Below are positions 20,001 through 47,608 of a DNA stretch of 64,000 nucleotides, piece by piece. The notes beneath the pieces were generated by a model. It searched no databases, had not been told where the DNA came from, and was given only the letters and a program-made list of their open reading frames with translations. Every line of letters starts with the position of its first letter. Position 1 is the first letter of the stretch. A program made the translations under genes and the position numbers. Origin of the DNA: Membranipora membranacea (Eukaryota; Bryozoa; Gymnolaemata; Cheilostomatida; Membraniporidae); assembly GCA_914767715.1 (NCBI GenBank), contig OU612070.1, positions 11,923,501-11,987,500 of the forward strand, written 5' to 3'.

Positions 20001-23000
20001 AATACTATGTATGTTCGGATTAAAAGAGAGCGACACAACAGAGCTCATTGCACCTTACAATAGCCACTATCACCTACCGATTGCAGCTGTTGATAATGGT
20101 ATCATGTAATTAGTTATATTTACCTAGATCCCCTGTTCTCATAACAACTGTCTTTATCCGCCATTTTTCATCGCTGTTTGTAACTTTCACGCTGAATGAG
20201 TAGTTTTTTTGAACCTCCAGACCATCGATTATATTGTTTGTGGAGAAGTCGGGCCCGCCATTGACTTTGAACTCTGTTGGTTGAACACTCAAACAATTTG
20301 CTGTGACATTCTGTGCAACAAAGACCATTTTATATGAGTAAAATAATAGATGATTGACCTGATTGAAATTTTTACCCAGAGCATCCTGTGATCCATATAT
20401 ATTATCATATTGTAATATCTGATCTGATCGAAACTAATCTAAACCTTGTCAGATTTCTACCTAAATAGTACATAACAACGTTACTTACATTTACACTTAG
20501 TGTTGCACTCCATTCTTGCAGATGATCTGATTTGTTGCGTTTGTTGAGGGTCACCTGATGTTCTGTGAATTCAAACTCTGGCTCTGTAGAAAAAAGAATC
20601 AGCACGTACAGTTTGTGAAGCAGTCTCATAACATACATCAAAAGTACAGACATCATACCTCGGTCAGGTTCTTGAACCTCAGTGCGCCTGTATTCAGTGT
20701 AGTCAGACAACAAAAACCAAAAATCCACATAATATATTTGCAATGTCAGGTGATGAAGCGTATAATTTAAAGAATAAAACTCAGTTAAGACACTTATCTA
20801 TACTCGGTAATGGTCATCATGGTAACATTCACTTTCTGTTTCCATTATTTTGCCGTTGGTAATTTCAAACTCTGATTGGATCCGGCTTGAACTAAATTCA
20901 AGAGCTTGGATGAATGGGAATGCGAGTATTTGTTCAATTTGGTAGCAAGTCGCTCTATTGATCAACCAATCAACAATGTTAAAATCATGACCGGGGATTC
21001 ATCCATCATCATTTTTTGACATTTTTTGACACAGATACAGATACGTGTTGAATCGTAGCATTCAAATTTGGCGGCGTGGCTGAATGGCTAGCACGATTGC
21101 ACACAATGACTTCCTGGCCGCGGCAGATGTTTTTCATGTTTTTTCCATCATGGAAATGGTTAGCATTCATAATTCGAAATTGGAGTGAACCACAAATTCG
21201 AGGCATAAGCTGTCTAGATGATACCAACTGGGATGAACTGCTTACTGCTCCTGATGCAAATGAAGCCGCTGACACATTTGTAGACTACCTGAACTTCTCA
21301 ATGGAAACATGTATACCAACCAAGCGATTAGTCATACCAGCCAACAACAAAACGTGGATGACTCCTAGAATCAGCCGGCTGATTGGTGAGAGAACCCAGG
21401 CTTACCAAAGTAACTCAGCTGAACACCACATATTAAAAGGGAAAGTCCAGAAAGCCATAAGAGAGGCAAAGCATAATCATGCCTCAGACATTGAGAGTAG
21501 AATGCAATGTAATAGAAGACTAGCATGGAGTCAGTTACGGTCAATCTTGAAATTAAAAGATAATGCAAAAGGGTGCTCTCTTGATTCTGATGTATTGAAT
21601 GTTTTTTTCAATCGTTTTGATAAACAGAGTGAGTGTCCGGACTTACCATCTCTTGAACCTATTTTTGATGATTTTTCTTTTGAGGAAGATTATGCAACTC
21701 TATGTAATGTACAAACGTGTAAGAGCCCAGGTCCAGACAACATCACCGCAAAAATGCTCAAATGTGCTGCATCCACCCTAGCACAACCCCTGACACTGCT
21801 TTTTAATCGATCACTTCAGGAAGGTGTTATGCCATAGTTTGGAAAACAGCAGATATCAAACCTATTCCTAAGTGTGCAGGGACATCAGATCCTAAATATT
21901 TTAGGCCGATAGCCCTCACCTCCATCGTGGGCAAATGTCTCGAGCGTCTGGTTATGAAATGACTCTCACCATTACTAGACAACCCCACCCAGTTTGCGTA
22001 TAAGTCTGGTAGGTCTACTGAAGATGCTCTAATCACTCTGATTGACTCGGTAACTGAACATCTTGACAGCCATGCTAAAAATCGGGTCCGAGCTCTTTTT
22101 ATAGACTTTTCTAGTGCTTTTAACACCATCAATCCAGCCACAATAATCAGCAAACTCGATAGCTACAACATCAATCCTAACATCATCAACTGGCTATATA
22201 ACTAACTTACAAATAGAACACAGCGAGTTATTACATCACTCAACACGTCAAAATCATTAAGCACTTCAACTGGAAGCCCTCAGGGGTGCATCATCAGCCC
22301 ACTGCTATTCTCCTTTTATGTTGTCAATATGCCATCAACAAGCAACATCAAACTAGTAAAATATGCCGAGGACACTGTGATCATTGAATTGTTGACAGCA
22401 AACCAGCCATCTGAACTTCAAACAATGACTAATACCATCAACTCATGGTGTGCGGATAATGACCTAATACTCAATGCAAAGAAAACAAAAGAAATGGTCA
22501 TGTGCAATGCAAGGGATAACCCAAGCTACCCACAACTGCTTGTAAACGATACTTCAATTGAGCAGGTAGAACAATTTACATACTAAGGCACAATTATTAC
22601 CAACAAACTGGATATTACTCTGAACACCTTGAAAACTACAGCGAAAGCTCGCCAAAGGCTACATATAATCGCCAAGCTATACCGTCTCGGTATCACTGAG
22701 AAACTAATAACGACCTGCTACAAGTCCTTCATAGAGTCAGTAATCACCTACCACCTGGTTGTGCTATATAGTCATCTGAGCGCAGACTCTAAGAAAAAGT
22801 TACAAACTGTGATAAGAACTGCAGGTTACCTATCAGGCGAACTTACGTTCACACCCGTAGACGACCTTTACTCTAATATACTGAAAGTAAAGAGCCTCCG
22901 TATGATTGCCACCGAAGATGAACCACTACTCCGTCTTAACCAGCTACCGTCAGGCAGATATCAATCAGTCAAGTTCCGCGTGGAGATCCGTGCCAAATGT

Positions 23001-26000: not shown

Positions 26001-29000
26001 TGCTAAGCTTATATAAGCAGTAGTTTTACAAATAGCATGGCATGACAAATGAACAGGGAATCAGAAGAAGGACCAGAAATTCAAACCAAGGACGTCGGTC
26101 AAATAACATAAATATTCGTGTATCTTGCTCATCCGTTTATCTCCACTTTTGTTTTCAATATATACCAATAGGATTACCTCAGACTTGAGCAATATAACTG
26201 TCATTAAATACGCAGACGACACCTGTATAATTGGATGCATATCAAATCAATCAGATCTTAGTGCCTATCTTGATGAGATTAGTAGAATTTCAAAGCAATG
26301 TTGTGATTTAAGCCTATTGTTAAACGCCTCCAAGACTCAAGAAATGATATTTTCTACTCAGCTTGTTAGGCCCATTACCCCTGCTCTTATCCTTAACGGC
26401 ACGGAAGTTGATTTTTGTGACAAAGTAAAATACCTTGGTGTTACTGTTGACGATAAACTCCGCTATCATGATCATGTGCAATCCATAGTGACTACTGCAT
26501 CTCAACGCATGTATATTGTGAAAAATTTTGTATACTATAGCTCAAAGCCCCTTTCTCATATGTTATTCAAGAGTTTTATTGTATCCCTCATCACTTACTG
26601 TCTCCCCATACTTTTTACAAGCATCCATGCAAGCGACAAGAAGTCCTTACGCAAAATATTTAAAGATGCCGCCAAGTTAGGGATTGAGCACCCCGATATA
26701 GATGCTCTGGTGGCCAACCAGATCAAGACACTTGGACTACAGTACAAACACGATGAAGAGCACTTTATCAATGACTTTCTAACTAAATGCCCCTCAGGTC
26801 GCTACCGTACCGTTAAATATCGGGGTACATGGGGTAGAGACAGCTTTCTAAGACATCTCATACATACACTTAATAATATACTATTCTAAAAAACTTTTTA
26901 TACAACAGAGATCTGATTTTTCCATGTTTTTCTTTCTTGTCAGTATTAACAACGTATTTCGTGACAAATTTTTGTCTATGATAGTAATAAATCCATCCAT
27001 CCATCATCCGGGTTAAGTTTGTTGTGATAGATTTATTCGAATTCATGAAAATGATTTGGTCGGTGTCATGACCTTAAAGAGGTCACAACAGATTTACCCA
27101 GGCTGTCCCAAACCCACTCCCGACAGCTTGTACAGGCCAACCTGACCCTAAGCTTGCAAAAAAAAACCTAGACATACAGCAGGGGAAGAAACACATATAT
27201 CTAGTCTTATCTAATGAAGAAAACAATGATACTCAAGGGGAGGGGGCTAATTCAAACTGTTTTTTTTTAAATCTGTTAAGAACACAAACACAAATGACTA
27301 GGGAAAAAAATCTTCGCTCCCAGACATAAAATATTACTATTGTTCTCACCTCATATTTTGTCATGACTTCATTGTCCGTTGGTCTATGCCAGGACAGTTG
27401 GACACAGGAAGTATTCACAGGAGACAGAGTGAAGTTTTCATGCTTCTCAAATGCTACAATGATACAACCCGATTACAGTGTTTTGTTACTTTGTTACAAG
27501 AACCTATCATTATAAATATTTGGGTACATTATTTCAAATTGGTGTAGAGAAATTTTCTCAAGACACAAGAACCCACGCACGTACACACGCCCGCACACAC
27601 CAACGCACACACACACAATCAAGTAACCATACATATTGCCAGAATAAAACTGTATAATACAGTATTCTGCTCTGTTTATTCATTCAAGATATATGTCTTC
27701 TCATAGGATGTATGTTATCTCTGTGTTTCCCTCTCTAGATATTTCAGTTAGGCTATTCCATCTGAACAGGTAGGGGATTTTACATCCAAATTCAATATTC
27801 AGCATATCATTGAGTTATGCAGCTTCATATAGATCAAGTAGTGAACAGTTGTACTCAATTTGAATTGCAACATATATTAGCACTACACCAATAGAAAATG
27901 ATAAGGTATGTCAATTTATCTGGTTCCATTTTTAGACCGAAAGTCAACGTAGAAACCAAATACTTTATTCTGACCTATACTGACCTGCAGATTTTTGGTA
28001 GACCTCCACTTCAACAAGACATAAGTTTCCATCTCTAACTATAGCTACATACCGAGCCTCTCGAGCGGGACTCACCATTACAGCGTGGTCAAACTTATTC
28101 CCGGTCACATTTAAGGTTTTAACTGCAGACCATTCGCTAAGAAATAATTCTTGTCCTATTGTCATATTTGGCTGAATATCACAAGTGTATATTCTGCTCC
28201 CACTAGAGCGGTCAACTGAAAATATTTCACAAGATAAATATGTAGAAACCTTTATCACTGCATCACAAACTTGGGTAATTACAAACACGATTCACTGGTT
28301 TTATGATTCTGTGGTAATTCCATGAAACCCCTGGCGAAAGATCTAAAGATTAAATACCAAGGACAATATGCAAATGGCCTGCAAAATAATTGCCTCACCT
28401 CTGTCGTCTCTCAAGTGTACAATAATCTCAGAGATAGTGTAACTCTTTTCTAGATCTACAATCCACCACTGCTGAGATGACTCTCCCTCATCTGTGTGGG
28501 TATACTCTGTAAGTTTACCATCTACAGCTAAGGATGACTTCCCTTTTCCAGGGTCAGCAGTGTATGTGCTTATCTGCTTTGTAGGTTTGCCAAGAGCAAT
28601 GTTTGGATCTATCAAAAGGAGATGCCTTAGAACATTATAACCAAGTTTAAGTGGTTGATGTCTCAGGCTAAATAATTGTACACATGTTTAGTACTATAAA
28701 ATAGTCCGCTTTTATACTGGGCTGCACCTAACTGACATGTTTGTTGGTACTTATTGTCCTGAAACAGATTATCATGGCTACCCTATTAATAGTAGGGCCT
28801 GGTCAAGTGCTGTGGTAATATGAACTTATGCTCAACATAATAATCTAAGTAAGAACTTGCACAAAACATTGTATGATGTTGGTGGTCAATATATTACCCA
28901 GAAGTTCAATCTATCACAGTTATTAGCTCATTTTTCATCTTCATTGACATTTTCAAGCCATCGGTAAATTTGCAGCACCTGCTTTCAGGAGGGGGGGGGG

Positions 29001-37264: not shown

Positions 37265-37273
37265 GCGTATGAT
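37265..37273. repeat. 9-bp target site duplication, left (GCGTATGAT)
   Basis: GCGTATGAT immediately precedes the left terminus TAGACTAAAC. The identical 9-mer follows the right terminus at 47600-47608. Confidence 0.9.
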
Positions 37274-37363
37274 TAGACTAAACTAATAGCCTCTATCTTT
37301 CCGTACGACGGCCCTCTGGGGATAGAGACTATAACCATTGGCACTGCTATTAGAGTTGTCTCC
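37274..37363 (+). repeat. Left terminal inverted repeat with subterminal hairpin
   Basis: The first 19 bp match the right end at 15 positions. Then an internal hairpin with arms 37286-37297 (ATAGCCTCTATC) and 37321-37332 (GATAGAGACTAT), and then shared blocks TAACCAT, 8-bp spacer, CTATTA, and TTGTCTCC (37356-37363). The blocks recur in the same order in the right end. Confidence 0.85.
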
Positions 37364-37717
37364 CCCTGTACCAGGCATTAGGGATTCCGGAATCCCAAAT
37401 CACTGCTCAGGTATTCATGTCTTATATTGCGAACAATATCAATAATATTATGAAAAATAATTAATAAAACCTCCAACTTTATATGAAAATCAATAATATT
37501 CCACAAATATACTTCAGTAAACTTTTCTTTGACATTAATGTGATATATTGTGAGGAGTAATAATATCCTGTTGTGATTCACTCCTAAGATAAACAATTCC
37601 TCAAAAAGCATGGCTATGCAACTTTGCAATAGAGTAAATCACACATCACATCACCAAGCACCAATACACGGCTACAAAATCCTCTGACTCTTCAACTATA
37701 GCCAGCTAGCCATTATT

Positions 37718-40700
37718 ATGGTGAGTAAAAATTATCATCATCATGATGAATGAACAGGTGTATGTAGGTATAGTATTTTCAGGAAGGTGATAATAATAGT
37801 GGTTGAACCCGTCCCATGGGCCCCTGGGACTTGCATGTCTTTACTTTGCCAATGTCCACTATCAACCACCCAAAAAACACCAAATAGGATAAGACACAAA
37901 ATCTTTTTTTTTTACAAGCTCCGTTTGTGCTAGAACCTTCAAACCTGAAGCAAATGAAAGAGGAAGGAGGTGTGAGTTAGTGTGGGAGATTTCAAGGTAG
38001 GTTGTAAAAAAAAAAGATTTTGTGTCTTATCCTGTTTGGTGTTTTTTGGGTGGTTGATAGTGGACATTGGCAAAGTAAAGACATGCAAGTCCCAGGGGCC
38101 CATGGTTGAACCTAGTGTTATTTTTCTTGCTGTTATTATTTGTGACAATGAATAATCTATCATGGTGCTCCCTTTTCCCTCATATGCAAGGAAGGAAGTA
38201 GTGGCTTGGCTTGAAAGCAATGCTGATTGTTGGTATGGCAATGCCCGTCTACAAGACACAAAGACAGTATGAACGACACAGTGTAAACGTCATGAGCATA
38301 AAGTTATGTGTCATTTTCGACCCAATAATCTTCTTCAACTGTCTTTGTAGGCTGAGGGTAACCGTAAACGCTCATCAGTCTCCTCAGGCGAATCTCCGTA
38401 CATGAAGAAAACCATACAGTGTCAAATACAGGTGAGAACTAATTTCTTCTTGTTACAATCTAAACACTGTCAAAGATATTCAAATGTCACGGTGGGATTG
38501 AAATTGATACCCAAAGTTTATAAACACCGGGAAGAAAGTGGCTATGGATTGGCTATCTAAATCTCTTGCTCATTGGAAATCCAGCAAATGATCAGCAATG
38601 GAACTTGGTTCTCTAATGGACTGGTTGTCAGACAACACTGTTGAAATTGTGTTTGATATCACATGGCTTGTTTTTATGCCTTTATCACTGTGATTGTCTT
38701 TAGGAGTTTGTGCTTACGAACTTTATATATGAAGAGCACTCGCTCTTGAGCACAGCCAAAGTTATGGAGATATGTACCAGAGAATTCACCGAAGCTCAGC
38801 TGAATCAAGGTTACCTGCTTTCAAAAACCCTCAAGAAGGTTCTCAAGCCGCCAGGGAGGCGAGGCCTGCCTGTACAGCTTCATGGAGCCCAAAAGTAAGT
38901 TGGATGACTGCAACTGACACTTCATGCGACGTTTGGATCTATTGAGGTCTGACATGTTGATCAAACTAGCTAACAAGCTGCTTCCTAAACTAAGTCCTTC
39001 ATAGCCAACCAAATAGAATAGAGTTTTTAAAGTTTCAATACAATTTAATTTGGACATTCAAATGCAAAAGCTCTAAACCATTTTGTTTTTGACATGGCCA
39101 GACTGATGACTGAACCATACTTACAATTCATAAAATCTGAATCAATATTGCCAACAGTTTCTTTCATCATTCAATCACCGTATTCTCATTGTAATCGGCA
39201 TGTTGATTGACCAAACTGTTCCCTATAAACCTATTGCAAAATATATCTCTTTTTTTACAGAAATCGTCGATGGATCAACATTGCCATCCGCCTCAACACT
39301 GAAGTTGACCAACCAATGGAACCCATCAACCGAAAAGACGACAAAGCAGAACCGACTGATCTCACACTTTCTCATCTTACACTGGCAGAGCCCATACCGC
39401 TACCTGTTCCACCTGTTGCCGATTTGCCACCCAGTTCAGGAGATGATATGGAGAGAGGAGAGGTTGACGATGAAGGAGACTGGGAGGATATCCTGGAGTT
39501 CCCAGATATACAGATCACTGAGTCAACCGGTCAATCTTTGTTATACAGTCAGAAACCAGTGATTGCTACAGGTAGCAAGAAAGCAACTCTCAGGAAACAT
39601 TCTATCGTAAGTACCCTCAGGTATATGCTATCCATGTTGTACTCAATATGTACCACACTCCTTTGTTCCCAGGGTAAAGCTCAAAATCATAGCAAGAACG
39701 AAAAATGTATACATAATCAAAGTCAAGTCTATATAAGCTAGCCCAAAATCCTAAACATAATAGCTCTCAAAATCATCCTGCTGATGGGTGTGTCACTAAC
39801 CCCAAGCACAGTCTAGGAACCATTTATAAGTAGATAAGTATGGACACATCTGGTGGGGTTTTCCTTCCATCATTAACAAATAATTGCATTAATCTCAGTT
39901 TTGCATATATTTCACTAGACTACATACTACACTTTCCATAAATAGTCACTCATTTGGTACAACTGAATGTCATGACATCAATATAATATAGGCTTTTTCT
40001 CTGTTATTGTCCGTGTAAATCTTCCAGAAATATTAACTGCTACGGTCACTCATCATTATATTTGAAAGCATTTTTGTTTTTGAGTAATTATAGCGATCGT
40101 CATTGTCATGATCCAGGGAACAAAAACCAAGATTTGGGCAGCCAATTGCTCCTCACCTGCGGATGGTGATTGTTGTTGTAACTACCAATAGCTGAAGGAA
40201 ACTAAATCAAATTATCTTTTGTAGCGGGTAACATCTGAAGAGGCCATAGCTCTAAGCAAGATTAGGGATGGCAACATTGTGGCTGGGGTTCGAACGTTGC
40301 TTACCAAGGAGCAGTTCCAGGAGCTAGTTATAGGATACACCACAAAATTGCTCCAGAAAGAAGTCCGAGATTATGCCAAAGATCCAGAGTCCATGCTTAA
40401 ATCGGTTTCACCAGAATCACTGAAGGATTTTGACATGGTAAAGCTTGACACTGAGACATCACAAAGGCTGCCAATCACCAAACGTATTATTAAGGCTGTG
40501 ACAGTACGCAACAAGAGATTTAGTGAAAAGTCGCTACGTTCTCGTCTGCCTGCCATCAACACAGTGATCGCAAAATCACTGTCAATATACAGTAATCGCA
40601 TGTCTGCATTCAAATACTGCATGTCTTCCGTCCTAATACAAGGCGGTGCCACAGAGCAGTGTATGGACCAGCTCGCAGCCTTCTCTGACTGCCCATCAAG

Positions 40701-43700
40701 ATCCTCGAGAAACCGTAAACAACTAGAATTTGCTGCCGAATACGATAGTGAGCTCCAGAATTGGATCGCTGGCGTTAGAGCATTTACTCTGGCCTTTGAC
40801 AATGTCGACAAGCAGATCAAGAGCAGGCACGCTTCTGTCGAGAAAACAAGTAAACTTTCTCACATGATAATATCACTGGCCTTTCTGGACCGAGTCCCTT
40901 TCAATCCATTGAAAGGTTTAACTCCTCTCGATAAGCTGACGGAGGTTAAACCTGTCAACTTACTTCCGACTGCCAATGACAGATTACTGATTACTGATGC
41001 GATGGTTCAAGCTGTACGTACGATCTGGGCTGACCACATTCCAAGTCTAAAATGGATGGCTCCAATAGAAAATATGCATGAAAACTCGGCCTATACCAGT
41101 ACTATCAGCGAGGTGGTAGGTAGAATAACAATATATGAAGTTCAAACTCAGGAACAGGCAGTCTTTGACTCTTGTGTCTAGCGCGAGTTTCAAAGCTGTG
41201 AAAGTGTTGAAACCATTGAAATCATAACTAAGAGTTATGATTTCAATGGTTGAAACTGTCCATTCTCTTGATTACCATAGTCATAAACATGGCATAAAAT
41301 GCAGCCCCATGCATATTGAGGATAATTAGCGGTCATTTTGAGCATGCTTCATCTCACTAAGTTGTCCGATATTTTTGGTGTTTTAGGTAAATCTTGGAGT
41401 GCAGAAGAAGAGCGAGACATCACACCAAGATATGGTCGATATGATGGAGTACTATCATTCCTTCGTGCCTCAAGATGATTTGAGCAATCCAGTCTCGATT
41501 CCATTAGCGGGTAAGCAAAGAATATTTTTTACTAAGTAACCAGATGTGACGTCGTAGGGATTATTCTTCAAAGTAAACATTGATTTTGACTATGTGACTG
41601 TAATATCTTGCAATGTAGGTCAATAAAGCTGACAATAGAGACAATAAACCCCCCCCCCCCCGTCATTTGGATCACTCTCATGGTTTCCCTACCCATGTGT
41701 TATAGGAGATTGGCTTAGTATGAAGTCTGGCCAGAAAGCTCAGATGTCTCAAGCCGATGGTCTGACACCGTCTGAGAGGCGAGATGGGTTAGTGTGCATA
41801 ATGGCTGACTTTCACGCCCAGATGGCACTGCTCAGGCTTATATTCAAGGTCCTGTATGATGTTGACTCCAGCTCAGACTGTGGTACATTATATGCCTGCA
41901 AAAATGTCATCAATGCTAGAAATGTAACCACTAATGTAGGCAAGGACTATCACGCTGGATCGGAGCTCGTGAATCATGTCACACAGGCGTATGTCATATC
42001 AGGTAAGAATTCTTTGCAGTTATTTGTTTTTTTTATCATAATTATCATGATACTGAATGTAAAATAAACTGAAACTGAAAGAGAGAGAGAGAGCTGTTGC
42101 ACAACAGAATGGTAGTTGACTTGCATATCAAACAAACTGTCAATATCAGAATCAAAATGCAAACTAAAACAACATTTTTGAGATCGGTATTCCTTGACTT
42201 AGCTATAATTTATTGGTTAAACAATCCCATATCATATCTGCTTAGATGTTGTGTTTTAGCTGCCCTTGAATATTTCAACCTGAAGTCGATGGAAGATGAT
42301 GTACCAGTGGAGGATGAGGGAGCACAGACTGAAGTCAGAGCAGATCAGATAGCACGTGACTTCGTAATGAAACACTGCATTCTAGATGTACTTGGTGCAA
42401 GCTCCGCGAAAAAGAGGTATTGCAAGATGTGCTTCGCTTCACCATGATACAACTTTATTATGACAGCCCTTAACAAACGATGTCACGGCAATAAAGCACG
42501 CTGAATCCTGATCTAGTCATGCTGACGATGAATGAAACGTTGATGTTATAAAAAAGAAGCGCACCAGGTCATGTTCCCATCCGCTTTGTAAAATTACACT
42601 ATGCGTTTGGTTGAGAGAAAAGCATAACCTCCCTATATAGCCATGAGATTAAACTAATCACACCTTGATTTACCGGATACTTCTTTGCTTACAGGTGTCC
42701 TGTGTGCGATGCTGAGTACTCCACAGTGCTGTTGGTTCAGTCTCACTTTAGAAAAAAACACAGCGAGTGTGATTTTCCCTCTGACCTCGTAAAAGAGCAT
42801 ACTGAGGTGTTGCTGACGCTTGGACTAATGAAAAAAGTACATGATAAAACCATCCAGGTGGCTGATGGAGATATGTTGATGGTGTTATATAAGTATATGT
42901 TGATATGGTTTCGTGCAAACAATATGAACAATTACTCCACTGGTCTCCTAGAACTGCAGTTCCAGCTCAGAGTCCTCCCAGCCTACCTTGCCCACAGCAT
43001 TACATGGAACCGATTCGTGAACACAAAAGGAAAGCTGGACACTAATAAGCCAATGGGTAAGGACTAGGAAATCTGTACCATGGAATTTCAAGCCTCTTTC
43101 AATAATTATAGGCTTATACCAGGCATGGGTCCATTATTAGATAAGCGATTGAGTAAAAACTGACAAGGCACAACTGACACCAATCGATAATAATTGTGTT
43201 CATTCTTTCACCATATAACATCAAACGACCATAATCAGTGATCTAGTGAAGCACAATTTTCTTCTCATCAATTTAATGACATTGTTAGTTTATAATTCAA
43301 TAATGGACCCATGCCTGCATTAATTACAGATTGAGGCACGCATATGAAACCCGGTGTCAACAAAATCGTGTGAGGCTCATAGTATGAAAAACACAACAGC
43401 ATCATCACTTCCTTTATTTTGTTCAAATATAATTCCTCATATCATCTTATTGCACTGTGATATTAATTTGAAAATGCATACGTGAATTTAATGATATAGT
43501 GTTTTTGTTTCAGATCTACATGTGGAACACAATGTTGGATCATTCAAGAGTCGTCTGTCCACCTACAAAGGAATTCATACCATTCCAGCAATCGCCAAAC
43601 TCTCAAGAGCTACTAACCATCGCAACAAAATAGTGGCAAATCTCTATAGGTCCACTAAAGCTTTCAAGAGGAGTGGCAAACACACTGAGAACAAGGCTGA

Positions 43701-43914
43701 GTACAACAAAAAGGTCAAGGCTCTTCTCGAACATCTTTCTAGAGAGAAACTCTTCACCCATCAGACTGGTCGTCGTTTTAGCACTGTGTTTGCACCAGCT
43801 GCTGCCCTACAAGACTCTATGGCATGTTGCAGTACATGGGCTGAGGAGAAGATCGATGTCTGGACCACCAAACACTACTACCGATATCAGTCTTCACTGT
43901 GTAACGATGTATAA
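37718..43914 (+). CDS. DUF6589-family DDE-type transposase with C2H2 zinc finger
   Basis: Predicted exons: 37718-37720 (ATG alone before GTGAGT), 38351-38431, 38704-38894, 39261-39606, 40225-41115, 41387-41510, 41706-42002, 42260-42416, 42695-43056 and 43514-43914. They total 2853 nt, giving 950 aa with no internal stop, and all junctions are in phase. Candidate catalytic acidic residues: Asp in AFDNVDKQ (codon 40798-40800), Asp in MADFHAQM (41807-41809) and Glu in LHVEHNVG (43525-43527), an RNase-H-fold D-D-E order by inference. Between the second Asp and the Glu lies a C2H2 finger, CPVCDAEY...HFRKKH (C-x2-C-x12-H-x4-H, from 42696). An acidic stretch (GDDMERGEVDDEGDWEDI) lies in the third coding block. 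A poly(A) signal AATAAA is at 43944-43949. Role: expected to bind the element ends and catalyse excision and insertion. The single-codon first exon is the least certain part; MKKTIQ at 38401 is an alternative start. Confidence 0.8.
37801..38112. mobile_element. Fold-back (MITE-like) element in intron 1 of the transposase
   Basis: Arms 37814-37919 and about 38000-38105 are near-perfect reverse complements of about 100 bp (both ends CCATGGGCCCCTGGG outward), separated by an 80-bp loop. GGTTGAACC occurs at 37801-37809 and 38104-38112 and reads as a 9-bp target site duplication. The arm ends do not resemble the TAGACTRAAC ends of the host transposon, so this is a separate non-autonomous element nested in it, carrying no gene. 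Confidence 0.8.
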
Positions 43915-44317
43915 GGATATATAAATACTGGTAGTTCAATGAAAATAAATTGCTAGCTATACATTTTTCGCATTTTTTCTTTGGAAAACCAGTAGCCACA
44001 ATTCACAAAGTACTTTATTATTTACTTTTAACTTTAAACGATAGCATAGTTATAATACATTTCACCAACAGAGTGGTAGGCCTATTTCATGCATGTAATA
44101 TGTAACATATACAATTGACTGCTAATAGGCTATATAATATGATATAACGGATAGGAAGTGTCCACGAGAGCAGTCATCACAGCCTGAGAATTAGGAGAGA
44201 TGAGATAGTAATTGGTATACGCTTATTATAGTCATATAGAAGTTAATAAATCACCGGTTAGCAGTCAAAATGCCTCAGTAAAAACTATATACGTAATGAT
44301 TACAGGGTGTTAATGTA

Positions 44318-47193
44318 CTAATCATCACTGTCTGAGAATTCTGAGTGATCCTCTTCTGAAACCAAGCTTGGCGTATGTATGGAGCTACTAACCCTACTAC
44401 TGGCAGTTGTAGCTGATAGGGCTGAATCATGTTGATTTGCATCAATGAGACGCTTGATGGGTAGATTGAGTGTATCCAATGTCCAATTGCAGCTATCACA
44501 GCAAGTGTCTTCACTGGCTGTCTTCGGAATATTGAAGTAGGCCAGTAGCAGCCTACGTCGACAACTGTGTGAGGTCTTGATAAAGTCGTGCAAAGCTTTT
44601 GGTATAGGCCGACCAGCAGTCATGTGACTATATGTCAGTAGTATGGCGTGACCATGTGACCCCCGCTCCCTGGCTAGTCGCCCCGTTTCCTGTACATAGT
44701 CTTCAACACTACTTGGTACACCATAGTGTACAACAAAGTGAATGTGTGAGAGATTTAAGCCCAGACTGAATGAAGATGTGCAGAATATCACCTGAGTTTT
44801 GCTAAGTGGACTGGTCATCATCTGAAGAATCAGCTTTTTTCTGATATCGCTAGTTGTAAGGTGGTACATGTAAACTGTTCGATCTGGTATTGGGCAGTTT
44901 AAGTCTTGGCCTATTTTGGTGACCACATAGTCGTAGGCGTCACCAACTAAGTGAACATTCCTGAAGAAGATGAGCATTCGAAACGGTATCCCAATCGAGA
45001 TCAAGTTAATCAGCCACCAAAAGTTGACTGGGCATTGTCCTCCCACTTTGGCCACGTGATATCTACAATCAAAACAGACACATTGTTGAATACCATGGGT
45101 CTTAACTGTGCTACAATCATCATACTAAACAGATTACATGGGCAGCTTCAATAGCAGTACTTAGACGGAAACCTACACCAAATAAATGCTGGTCAGAAAA
45201 CACTAATTTTCTTCAGCTAGGCCTTAGTTGCCCTCAAGTCCACCAACACAATATTTTGCATTTCATTGATAAATATATCCGGTCAAAGCATTCCAGAGAT
45301 TTTAAGTTCCAAACCACTTTCAAAAAGCCTAGAAATTGACAAGCGTAACTGTAAATCACAGTACTCAATTCAATGAAACCATTCTGTTAGAACAGAAGGG
45401 TTACATAGTCTGTCTTCCCGTCACATGAAGTGGATAATGCTGATGGGCCACAGGCTAACACTTGATACAGCACAAAGTCCATTTCGACAGGGGCTGAGCC
45501 CAGTACCACTTGTACTTACGAGATGTTAGTTCTGTCATTGTTGTGTCTTATTAAGCGAGGATTCCTCAAGGAAAGAGAATTGGAGATCTTTGTTATAGTG
45601 CTATCTGTAGCTGTCGCTGTAAGCCCTACGATCCGGGCTTTGCAGAATGATCTGACTTCAGCAAGCCGGCCGTACGTCTCCCTGAAAGGTATTCCTGTTT
45701 CAGATTCTGTGCTGAAAAACAAACCAGGGCATACCATAACCAACAAATCTGTACAACCTGGACATTTGAATAGTAATTTTATAGCACAAGACAGTTGTAA
45801 CAGTAGGCCTATATTAATCTGTCATTCCAGGATAGAAATATTTTCTCTTCAAAATCCTTATTGAGATTTGTCCGCCGAATTCTGACTTTTAAAGTGAACG
45901 ATAGTCGTCCAATGTAACAATTAAATGGTATCAGGCGACTCATAGCAAAACAAATAGATTGCTGATACCAAAATTAGCCTCACTCATCGCACTTTGTTGT
46001 GGCCGAAGTGAGACCAGCCTTGGTTTAATTAAGGAATAGTTTCATGAACTGGTTGTCTGTGTTGCATACTCATGCATTGGCCTACTATTGTTTGTGAAAT
46101 CACCATCAACAAGTTCTACTTACTATGACACAACGACATGGCATTCATCAACGCAGATAAGCTGAATCTTTGTTGCAACATGGCTTTCCAGCAGCTTAGC
46201 TCGTCCTTCACCATTTAATAGACACTCCGGTGTAGAGAATATGAAGTCTGCTGCCTCAATCTCCTTCTCCGATGCTGACTCCAGATTTATCGCCTTGCCG
46301 AGATTCATCTCCTCCACCTTAGAGATATTGTCCATTATTAGGGCTATAAGAGGTGATATCACCAAAACCTTCGGGTGCCAATCATCGGTTCTCACAGAGG
46401 TGAGTCGTAGCAGTGAAGGCGCCACCTAAATAGTAAATAGAAAAAAAAAGGACTCAAAACCAACACACATGAGAGTGTGGTCTTTTTTATGATAATGATA
46501 TAATTTTCTGTGATCTGAGTTACTATATGCACAGCCATTCTTCTTCACCTTGCACAGGACTGGTGGATTGTACTTGATGTAAATGAAACCATCGTCATTA
46601 TTAACTGCAAACCACCAAACTAAGGTTGACAAATGGAACAATCCGAGTAGGCTACTACTAGCGCAGAAAATCTTGAAATTTTGTAAAAGATAGAGGTTAC
46701 CTCAATAGGTTTTTGTTACCTTTGTCAGGGAAAGTGGTACCACTTTCCCTGCCTTCAATCAGGTGTTATTACTTCTACCACTACTACAAACTAATCCGGC
46801 ACAAAATTTGCCAAAATAAAATTCAAGCTGATGAGATCTGTCCTCTTCAAGCCAAGATCATACAGAAACAGCATCCTATATAATAACACATACATTGGAT
46901 GGGTTATGGTCTTTGGTTCAGATTCAGAACATGAAACTAGGCAGTCAATCAGTGCATGCCCACCCCCCACAAAACATACATAATGAGAGAGACTAATAAT
47001 AATACTAGTAGCAGAACAAGTGTTGTTAGCTGCTGACTGATCCTCCTACCTGATATATCAGACTCTTTCCAAAGCCAGTTTCTGCTGTTAAAATAGTGTC
47101 ATTTACCAAACATGACTGTATAGCAGCCAGTTGGGGTTTTGATGGACTGAATCCAAAGAGTTCCTGTATGTGCCTGGTAATTAGCAAGTCCAT
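44318..47193 (-). CDS. RecQ-like DNA helicase carried by the transposon
   Basis: Four exons: 47050-47193, 46124-46425, 45520-45711 and 44318-45062. They total 1383 nt, giving 460 aa, in phase and without stops. N-terminal Q-motif-like FGFSPSKPQLAAIQ; Walker A ETGFGKS; motif Ia-like VLVISPLIALIMDN; DExH box VDECH; motif III GLTATAT; motif V-like FSLGLNLSHIHFVVHYGVP; motif VI QETGRLARERG. After it comes a RecQ-type zinc subdomain with SCRRRLLLAYF and CCDSC. No winged-helix or HRDC domain follows; the protein ends in an acidic Ser-rich tail (EEDHSEFSDSDD). Family role: ATP-dependent 3'-5' unwinding of duplex and branched DNA. It converges with the transposase gene, stop codons 403 bp apart. Inference: it may help open or resolve the hairpin-forming transposon ends. 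Confidence 0.85.
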
Positions 47194-47501
47194 AACTCAG
47201 TAGAGACAATCAGTAAAACTTGTCATCAGCTGAAATGAAATGTTTTTGCACTTCTTTCGGCACATCACCTATGTCATAGTCATAATATTAATACACCACT
47301 AAAAAAGATCCAATATTTAACAGTGAACATCTTTAATAACATCACAAATAATTTTTATTTCATCAAAAAACAAAAGAAATGATCCTAAAGACAATAACTT
47401 TAGTGATAAGATATAGAAATAGTGGAATATAAGACATGGATTTCTTTGGTAATTTTTAAATGGGAGAAGGGATTCCTAGGGATTCCCATATAAAGCAAAA
47501 A

Positions 47502-47599
47502 GGAGACAAGTCATAATAGAGGGACATATGGTTACAGGCTTGCCCTCCGGGCCTCGCTTCGCTCGGCCCGTCGGGAGGGTAGCCTGTTGGTTCAGTCTA
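47502..47599 (-). repeat. Right terminal inverted repeat with subterminal hairpin
   Basis: Read inward from 47599: TAGACTGAACCAACAGGCT, then a strong GC-rich hairpin with arms 47574-47586 and 47535-47548 (the + strand loop region GGCCTCGCTTCGCTCGGCC is itself palindromic), then TAACCAT, 8-bp spacer, CTATTA and TTGTCTCC. The hairpin stem differs in sequence from that of the left end but sits at the same place. Confidence 0.85.
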
Positions 47600-47608
47600 G
47601 CGTATGAT
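47600..47608. repeat. 9-bp target site duplication, right (GCGTATGAT)
   Basis: Identical to 37265-37273 and directly abuts the terminus GTTCAGTCTA. Confidence 0.9.

Follow-up and report, generated by a model that had tools for sequence, protein, structure and literature searches.

The target duplication of Kolobok elements is TTAA. AcademH elements are reportedly found in animals and fungi, to go by the title of a paper by Kojima (2020, Mobile DNA 11:15). AcademH, as characterised in an excerpt of the published account, has target-site duplications (TSDs) of 9 or 10 bp and encodes a helicase, whereas AcademX has duplications of 3 or 4 bp and encodes a nuclease; the difference in duplication length seems to be related to the enzyme encoded (PMC10045372). 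Helicases of the AcademH type carry the Pfam domains DEAD and Helicase_C in the part of the text that treats them (PMC10799480), and KolobokH is stated in the corresponding passage to encode a RecQ helicase (PMC9587614). Both names refer to such helicases in these excerpts (PMC10045372, PMC9587614). The combination of a helicase with a transposase is therefore not a new kind of element, AcademH being already in print, and the remark in the initial annotation that RecQ helicases are rarely part of cut-and-paste elements understates the printed record, as far as these portions of it go.

The locus analysed here lies in the 339-Mb assembly of the bryozoan Membranipora membranacea (18 contigs, designated by C and a number). 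The window is a stretch of 64,000 nucleotides of this assembly (C6:11923501-11987500), and positions given without a contig refer to it. Positions 37274-47599 of the window are a complete transposon with two genes between its ends (Table 1). We put the probability at about 0.88 that it is a DNA transposon of the AcademH kind, of the autonomous type. It is a probable new AcademH family, placed by description (helicase and TSD length) rather than by comparison with reference sequences.

The borders of the element are defined by inverted ends and by a duplicated target. The matched inverted ends reported in the initial annotation are present, TAGACTAAAC read rightwards from 37274 and TAGACTGAAC read on the minus strand from 47599; these 10-bp repeats agree at 9 of 10 positions, and the inverted repeat reaches 16 bp (TAGACTRAACYAAYAG). 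The perfect 9-bp duplication described there, GCGTATGAT, is likewise found on both sides. When inverted 10-mers 8-13 kb apart were required to match at 9 or more positions and to be flanked by an identical 9-mer, the window held one such arrangement, and none turned up in any of 20 Markov-randomised sequences. Under looser conditions (a 10-mer and 10 of 14 inverted matches) a pair inside the element was picked up as well, at 37389/47476 around TAGGGATTCC. The 10-bp end motif is by itself common in the genome and not enriched: TAGACTNAAC occurs 1237+1302 times against 2996+2953 for a reversed control, and it is not diagnostic. TA precedes the left 9-mer, so that an 11-bp repeat can be read at this site; the choice between 9 and 11 bp is settled by the other copies, which show the border. 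The right subterminal stretch folds at -15.9 kcal/mol (47585-47525; 2 of 200 shuffles equal or better, z -2.8). The left one (37288-37348) folds at -8.0 kcal/mol, with 16 of 200 shuffles equal or better and z -1.5, and is not clearly above chance. Positions 42729-42744, inside the transposase exon that encodes a zinc-finger-like stretch, match the right terminal repeat at 15 of 16 positions; chance is the simplest reading of this match, which was set aside. Elsewhere in the window, reverse-transcriptase fragments (RVT_1) lie at 22206-22583 and 26107-26886, and F5/8-type C domains also occur, a content in keeping with an animal genome.

Table 1. Features of the element and its borders, in window positions.
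Feature	Position	Strand	Basis or remark
Left target-site duplication GCGTATGAT	37265..37273		perfect repeat of 47600-47608
Left terminal inverted repeat TAGACTAAACTAATAG	37274..37289	+	same end in the C7 and C6:22.59 Mb copies
Left subterminal self-pairing stretch (weak)	37288..37330	+	DNA fold of 37288-37348
Later foldback MITE, 294 bp	37810..38103		112-nt inverted arms; 9-bp GGTTGAACC at 37801-37809 and 38104-38112
Likely transposase exon 1 with ATG, 35 aa	38162..38266	+	in frame with next exon; predicted
Transposase gene, 948 aa	38351..43914	+	splice sites and open frame; PF20231 at residues 452-872; exons 38351-38431, 38704-38894, 39261-39606, 40225-41112, 41387-41510, 41706-42002, 42260-42416, 42695-43056, 43514-43914
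RecQ-like helicase gene, 460 aa	44318..47193	-	exons 47193-47050, 46425-46124, 45711-45520, 45062-44318
Right subterminal G+C-rich hairpin-forming stretch	47536..47585	-	DNA fold of 47585-47525
Right terminal inverted repeat TAGACTGAACCAACAG	47584..47599	-	inverted partner of 37274-37289
Right target-site duplication GCGTATGAT	47600..47608		perfect repeat of 37265-37273

Another copy sharing these ends, whose absence had been named beforehand as one refuting outcome, was found at C7:14936970-14946982. This second full-length copy is 98.9% identical to the window element over an alignment of 9,510 columns, with 100% identity over the first 531 bases, and is flanked on both sides by a 10-bp duplication of its own, GGCTTGTAGC. 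Its helicase is open and differs by two amino-acid changes; in its transposase, a 19-bp deletion disrupts the frame, a premature stop is present, and the likely first exon has lost 1 nt. Paralogous empty sites exist because the C7 copy landed in repeated sequence. Its flanks, joined with one 10-mer, have at least 46 matches in the genome (61 candidates, of which 40 were scored). The junction is crossed by 15 of these matches, each with an identity of no less than 89%, and two of the 15 extend over the full length at 98%. One such site, read letter by letter, holds a single GGCTTGTAGC and no element. The empty site, which belongs to the C7 copy and not to the window copy, fixes both borders of the former, and these equal the borders of the latter rather than the differing ones named beforehand as a second refuting outcome. 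It follows that both genes moved as parts of one transposed unit, and the view of the locus as a complete element whose gene pair is mobilised together is borne out by the full C7 copy and its empty site. Inverted repeats enclosing two unrelated host or mobile genes by chance could draw on the commonness of the end motif; with a nearly identical copy on another contig that has the same ends, its own duplication and an empty site, the probability of such a coincidence is practically nil, and we regard it as refuted.

Shorter relatives of the element are scattered over the genome. A deletion derivative of 1.4 kb (C6:22593736-22595140) keeps both ends, has the 9-bp TGGTTGCAG on each side and lacks intact genes, and further partial copies lie on C3, C10, C7 and C6. 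A search with the DNA of the whole element gave at least 132 matches (38 of 1047 candidates scored); it missed the best copy, at C7:14.94 Mb, which was found by the DUF6589 search, and the copy numbers of the element are lower bounds. On C10, two insertions at 4711029 and 4725629 have different flanks and are alike over the first 1.67 kb, counted from the left end; their right end was not recognised, and the stretches searched held no duplication. No right end that closes the element was recognised in either of the two C3 copies, and in one of them (C3a) the left-flank duplication was not found. In the partial copy at C3:27.79 Mb, a 53-bp internal stretch is present twice and encloses a piece of the right terminal repeat, which looks like the remnant of an abortive or self-directed insertion.

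The window copy also bears a later insertion, the foldback MITE of Table 1, which the C7 copy lacks. The corresponding position in three of five other copies holds exactly one GGTTGAACC, in another GGTTGAATC and in the C7 copy GGTTTCACC. Many similar copies of this MITE occur across the genome. The description of the element as young holds in a relative sense only: the window copy has had time to receive the MITE, and non-coding divergence between the two full copies is 0.74%.

The plus-strand gene encodes the presumed transposase. Its nine-exon model from 38351 gives 948 aa and has no internal stop, and the open multi-exon frame of the initial annotation stands. The protein is likely to comprise about 983 aa over ten predicted exons, rather than 950 aa, if the exon at 38162-38266 is counted; in this region the C7 copy has its 1-nt deletion and both C3 copies a 2-nt insertion. 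The profile search called for at the outset confirmed the assignment to DUF6589 (PF20231, E 1.6e-36, above its cut-off), the sole Pfam match of this protein above cut-off. The motifs DNVD and MADFHxQ, the glutamate of xEH and CPxC...H(x4)H are kept in those relatives whose matches cover them. The conserved residues of DNVD, MADFHxQ and xEH may form a DDD/E triad with a zinc-finger-like insert of C2H2 type, the candidate catalytic residues in the 948-aa model being D398 or D401, D578 and E820. The DUF6589 protein is a candidate member of the Academ DDD/E superfamily. Among viral contigs searched for the transposase, one stretch fitted a pattern and none was confirmed, and a literature library of 5.39 million papers contains no mention of the name DUF6589.

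The second gene lies tail-to-tail with the first, and the convergent RecQ-like helicase gene proposed earlier was recovered with its 460 aa in four exons and no internal stops. The protein matches DEAD, Helicase_C and ResIII above the Pfam cut-offs, the ResIII match falling on the ATPase core. Its RecQ identity is supported by the RecQ family model TIGR00614 (E 9e-41; 140.1 bits, below the curated cut-off of 219.8) and by RecQ_Zn_bind (PF16124, E 9.1e-5; 23.6 bits, just below the cut-off of 25), and its best solved relative is WRN. It has the SF2 core motifs and RecQ-type zinc cysteines in common with WRN, BLM and RECQ1, but is short compared with the cellular RecQ helicases, and Pfam lists no RQC or HRDC domain in it at E values up to 1. 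The window copy and a relative at C2:6.46 Mb both have motifs I, II, III, V and VI together with the zinc cysteines, the motif I region being covered only in these two sequences and in that at C7:2.20 Mb.

The presence of the helicase in the same element as the transposase is shared by the two full-length copies, which hold both genes between the same ends, and in this use of a helicase as second enzyme the element resembles AcademH. The TSDs of the family measure 9 bp in the window, 10 bp in the C7 copy with its empty site and 9 bp in the C6:22.59 Mb derivative, in keeping with the 9 or 10 bp that the excerpts give for AcademH, and the DEAD and Helicase_C domains named there are those of the window helicase. 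The proposal of AcademH as the nearest type thus agrees with the printed description, so far as the excerpts extend. AcademX belongs to the same superfamily as our element if the placement in AcademH is right; as excerpted, it differs in its nuclease and its duplications of 3 or 4 bp. Neither protein of the element has a Pfam match to a nuclease above cut-off. The genome has five matches to XPG_I, none of which, on inspection by eye, lies within 10 kb of the 31 listed transposase loci, and no pair of the AcademX type was detected with the XPG_I profile alone. KolobokH, the other known lineage of helicase-bearing DNA transposons, likewise joins a RecQ helicase to a DDD/E transposon according to the passage cited for it, which is what speaks for assigning the element there. 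Its duplications of 9 and 10 bp (GCGTATGAT, GGCTTGTAGC and TGGTTGCAG) nevertheless differ from the TTAA target of Kolobok, which makes a KolobokH origin very improbable; a further difference is that the helicase of our element is a separate convergent gene.

The pairing of the two genes extends beyond the full-length copies. Protein searches of the genome returned at least 56 matches to the transposase (48 of 122 candidates scored), 19 to DUF6589 and at least 76 to the helicase (92 of 109), which cluster into at least 31 transposase loci and at least 46 helicase loci. Of the 31 transposase loci listed, 12 have a helicase no more than 10 kb away, tail-to-tail in every case, against a mean of 0.078 pairs and a maximum of 2 in 2000 trials of random placement. 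Besides the window and its near copy on C7, these include 10 further loci, where identity to the window helicase amounts to 63, 41-42 or 35-39%; transposase identity ranges from 76% down to about 26%. Since paired families reach down to about 26% identity, the pairing is old and has been kept together for long.

Such recurrence of the convergent pair, with helicases 35-63% identical to that of the window, argues against the helicase being a passenger, that is, a captured host RecQ gene with no part in transposition. So does the state of the diverged helicases, as those at C2:6.46, C2:21.02, C4:7.54 and C7:2.20 Mb still show recognisable motifs II, III, V and VI. A passenger would agree better with the 19 of 31 transposase loci that, among the matches listed, have no helicase within 10 kb; 14 of these 19 are single matches, and the unpaired loci at C7:21384450-21387645 and C3:27619689-27622543 have five transposase matches each. 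It would also agree with the paired relatives at C7:21.2 and 21.36 Mb, whose helicases look decayed, as both carry changes in motif VI and at the last zinc cysteine and one has an in-frame stop in motif V, and with the deletion derivative, which has both ends and a duplication without intact genes (a full copy may have helped it to move).

Comparison of the window and C7 copies bears on the same question. The exons together are less diverged than the non-coding sequence (12 substitutions in 4211 sites against 43 in 5782, p = 0.0023), as are the transposase exons alone (8 in 2828, p = 0.010); for the helicase exons alone (4 in 1383) the comparison gives p = 0.063, a value that a passenger could accommodate. 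Among the changes in the transposase, 3 are synonymous and 5 nonsynonymous, one of the latter creating a stop; the helicase has 2 of each kind. With this p value and the even split of changes, the comparison gives no support for recent selection acting on the helicase by itself. Long-term constraint on it is likely from its comparison with the C2:6.46 Mb family, where dN is about 0.26 and dS too high to estimate, which again speaks against a passenger; these figures are crude, having been computed on unspliced matches, which may extend beyond the exons. The same crude route gives dN 0.059 and dS 0.087 for the C7 copy, and 0.047 and 0.038 for the C6 derivative. Taken with the evidence on pairing, we consider a passenger helicase unlikely, and the helicase is probably a working partner in transposition.

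Several observations concern relatives outside these comparisons. Among the matches listed, 34 of 46 helicase loci fall outside the 12 pairs, and some of them are weak matches, possibly to host RecQ genes. Nine helicase fragments covering approximately residues 213-332 lie at C7 ~21.6-25.0 Mb with no listed transposase match within 10 kb; they might belong to a family of host genes or to a separate family of mobile elements. In a second paired family (C7:2.20 and C10:11.05 Mb), two copies stop matching at TAAGTGCTCAAACGG, which seems to be the helicase-side boundary of this family; a search for its duplication gave 19 pattern matches, zero of them on C10, and its opposite end did not come to light. 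The left end of the C2:6.46 Mb relative was found, and the stretch examined contained neither the right end nor a duplication. Stretches of four relatives, scanned automatically for ends accompanied by an 8-10-bp duplication, yielded none; one or both ends may lie outside these stretches.

A probable course of transposition is as follows. The DUF6589 protein would act as a DDD/E transposase, binding both termini of the element and linking them to target DNA that has been cut at a stagger of 9-10 nt. The RecQ-like helicase could then unwind the ends or the joined intermediate, allowing strands to be processed and the 9-10-nt gaps to be filled; we hold this particular mode of action to be possible, at somewhat less than even odds. 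A role in end or target processing is likelier for the helicase than that of a passenger because of the link between accessory enzyme and duplication length drawn in the excerpt of PMC10045372. A bolder and rather doubtful proposition is that the RecQ partner sets the chemistry, the stagger of 9-10 bp being made by strand opening at the ends or target, with a replicative, copy-out movement as a possibility. The pertinent comparison is between 9-10 bp here and the 3-4 bp that the excerpts give for the nuclease-bearing sister lineage, and, if the proposition is true, an exchange of accessory enzyme amounts to an exchange of transposition pathway. A milder point of this speculative reading is that DUF6589, an uncharacterised Pfam family, would be the core of the AcademH transposase.

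The finding ties Pfam DUF6589 to a helicase-carrying transposon. A single genome offers a copy open in both genes, an empty site that establishes the borders, and several relatives that have diverged. With such an element, the role of a RecQ helicase in DNA transposition becomes testable.
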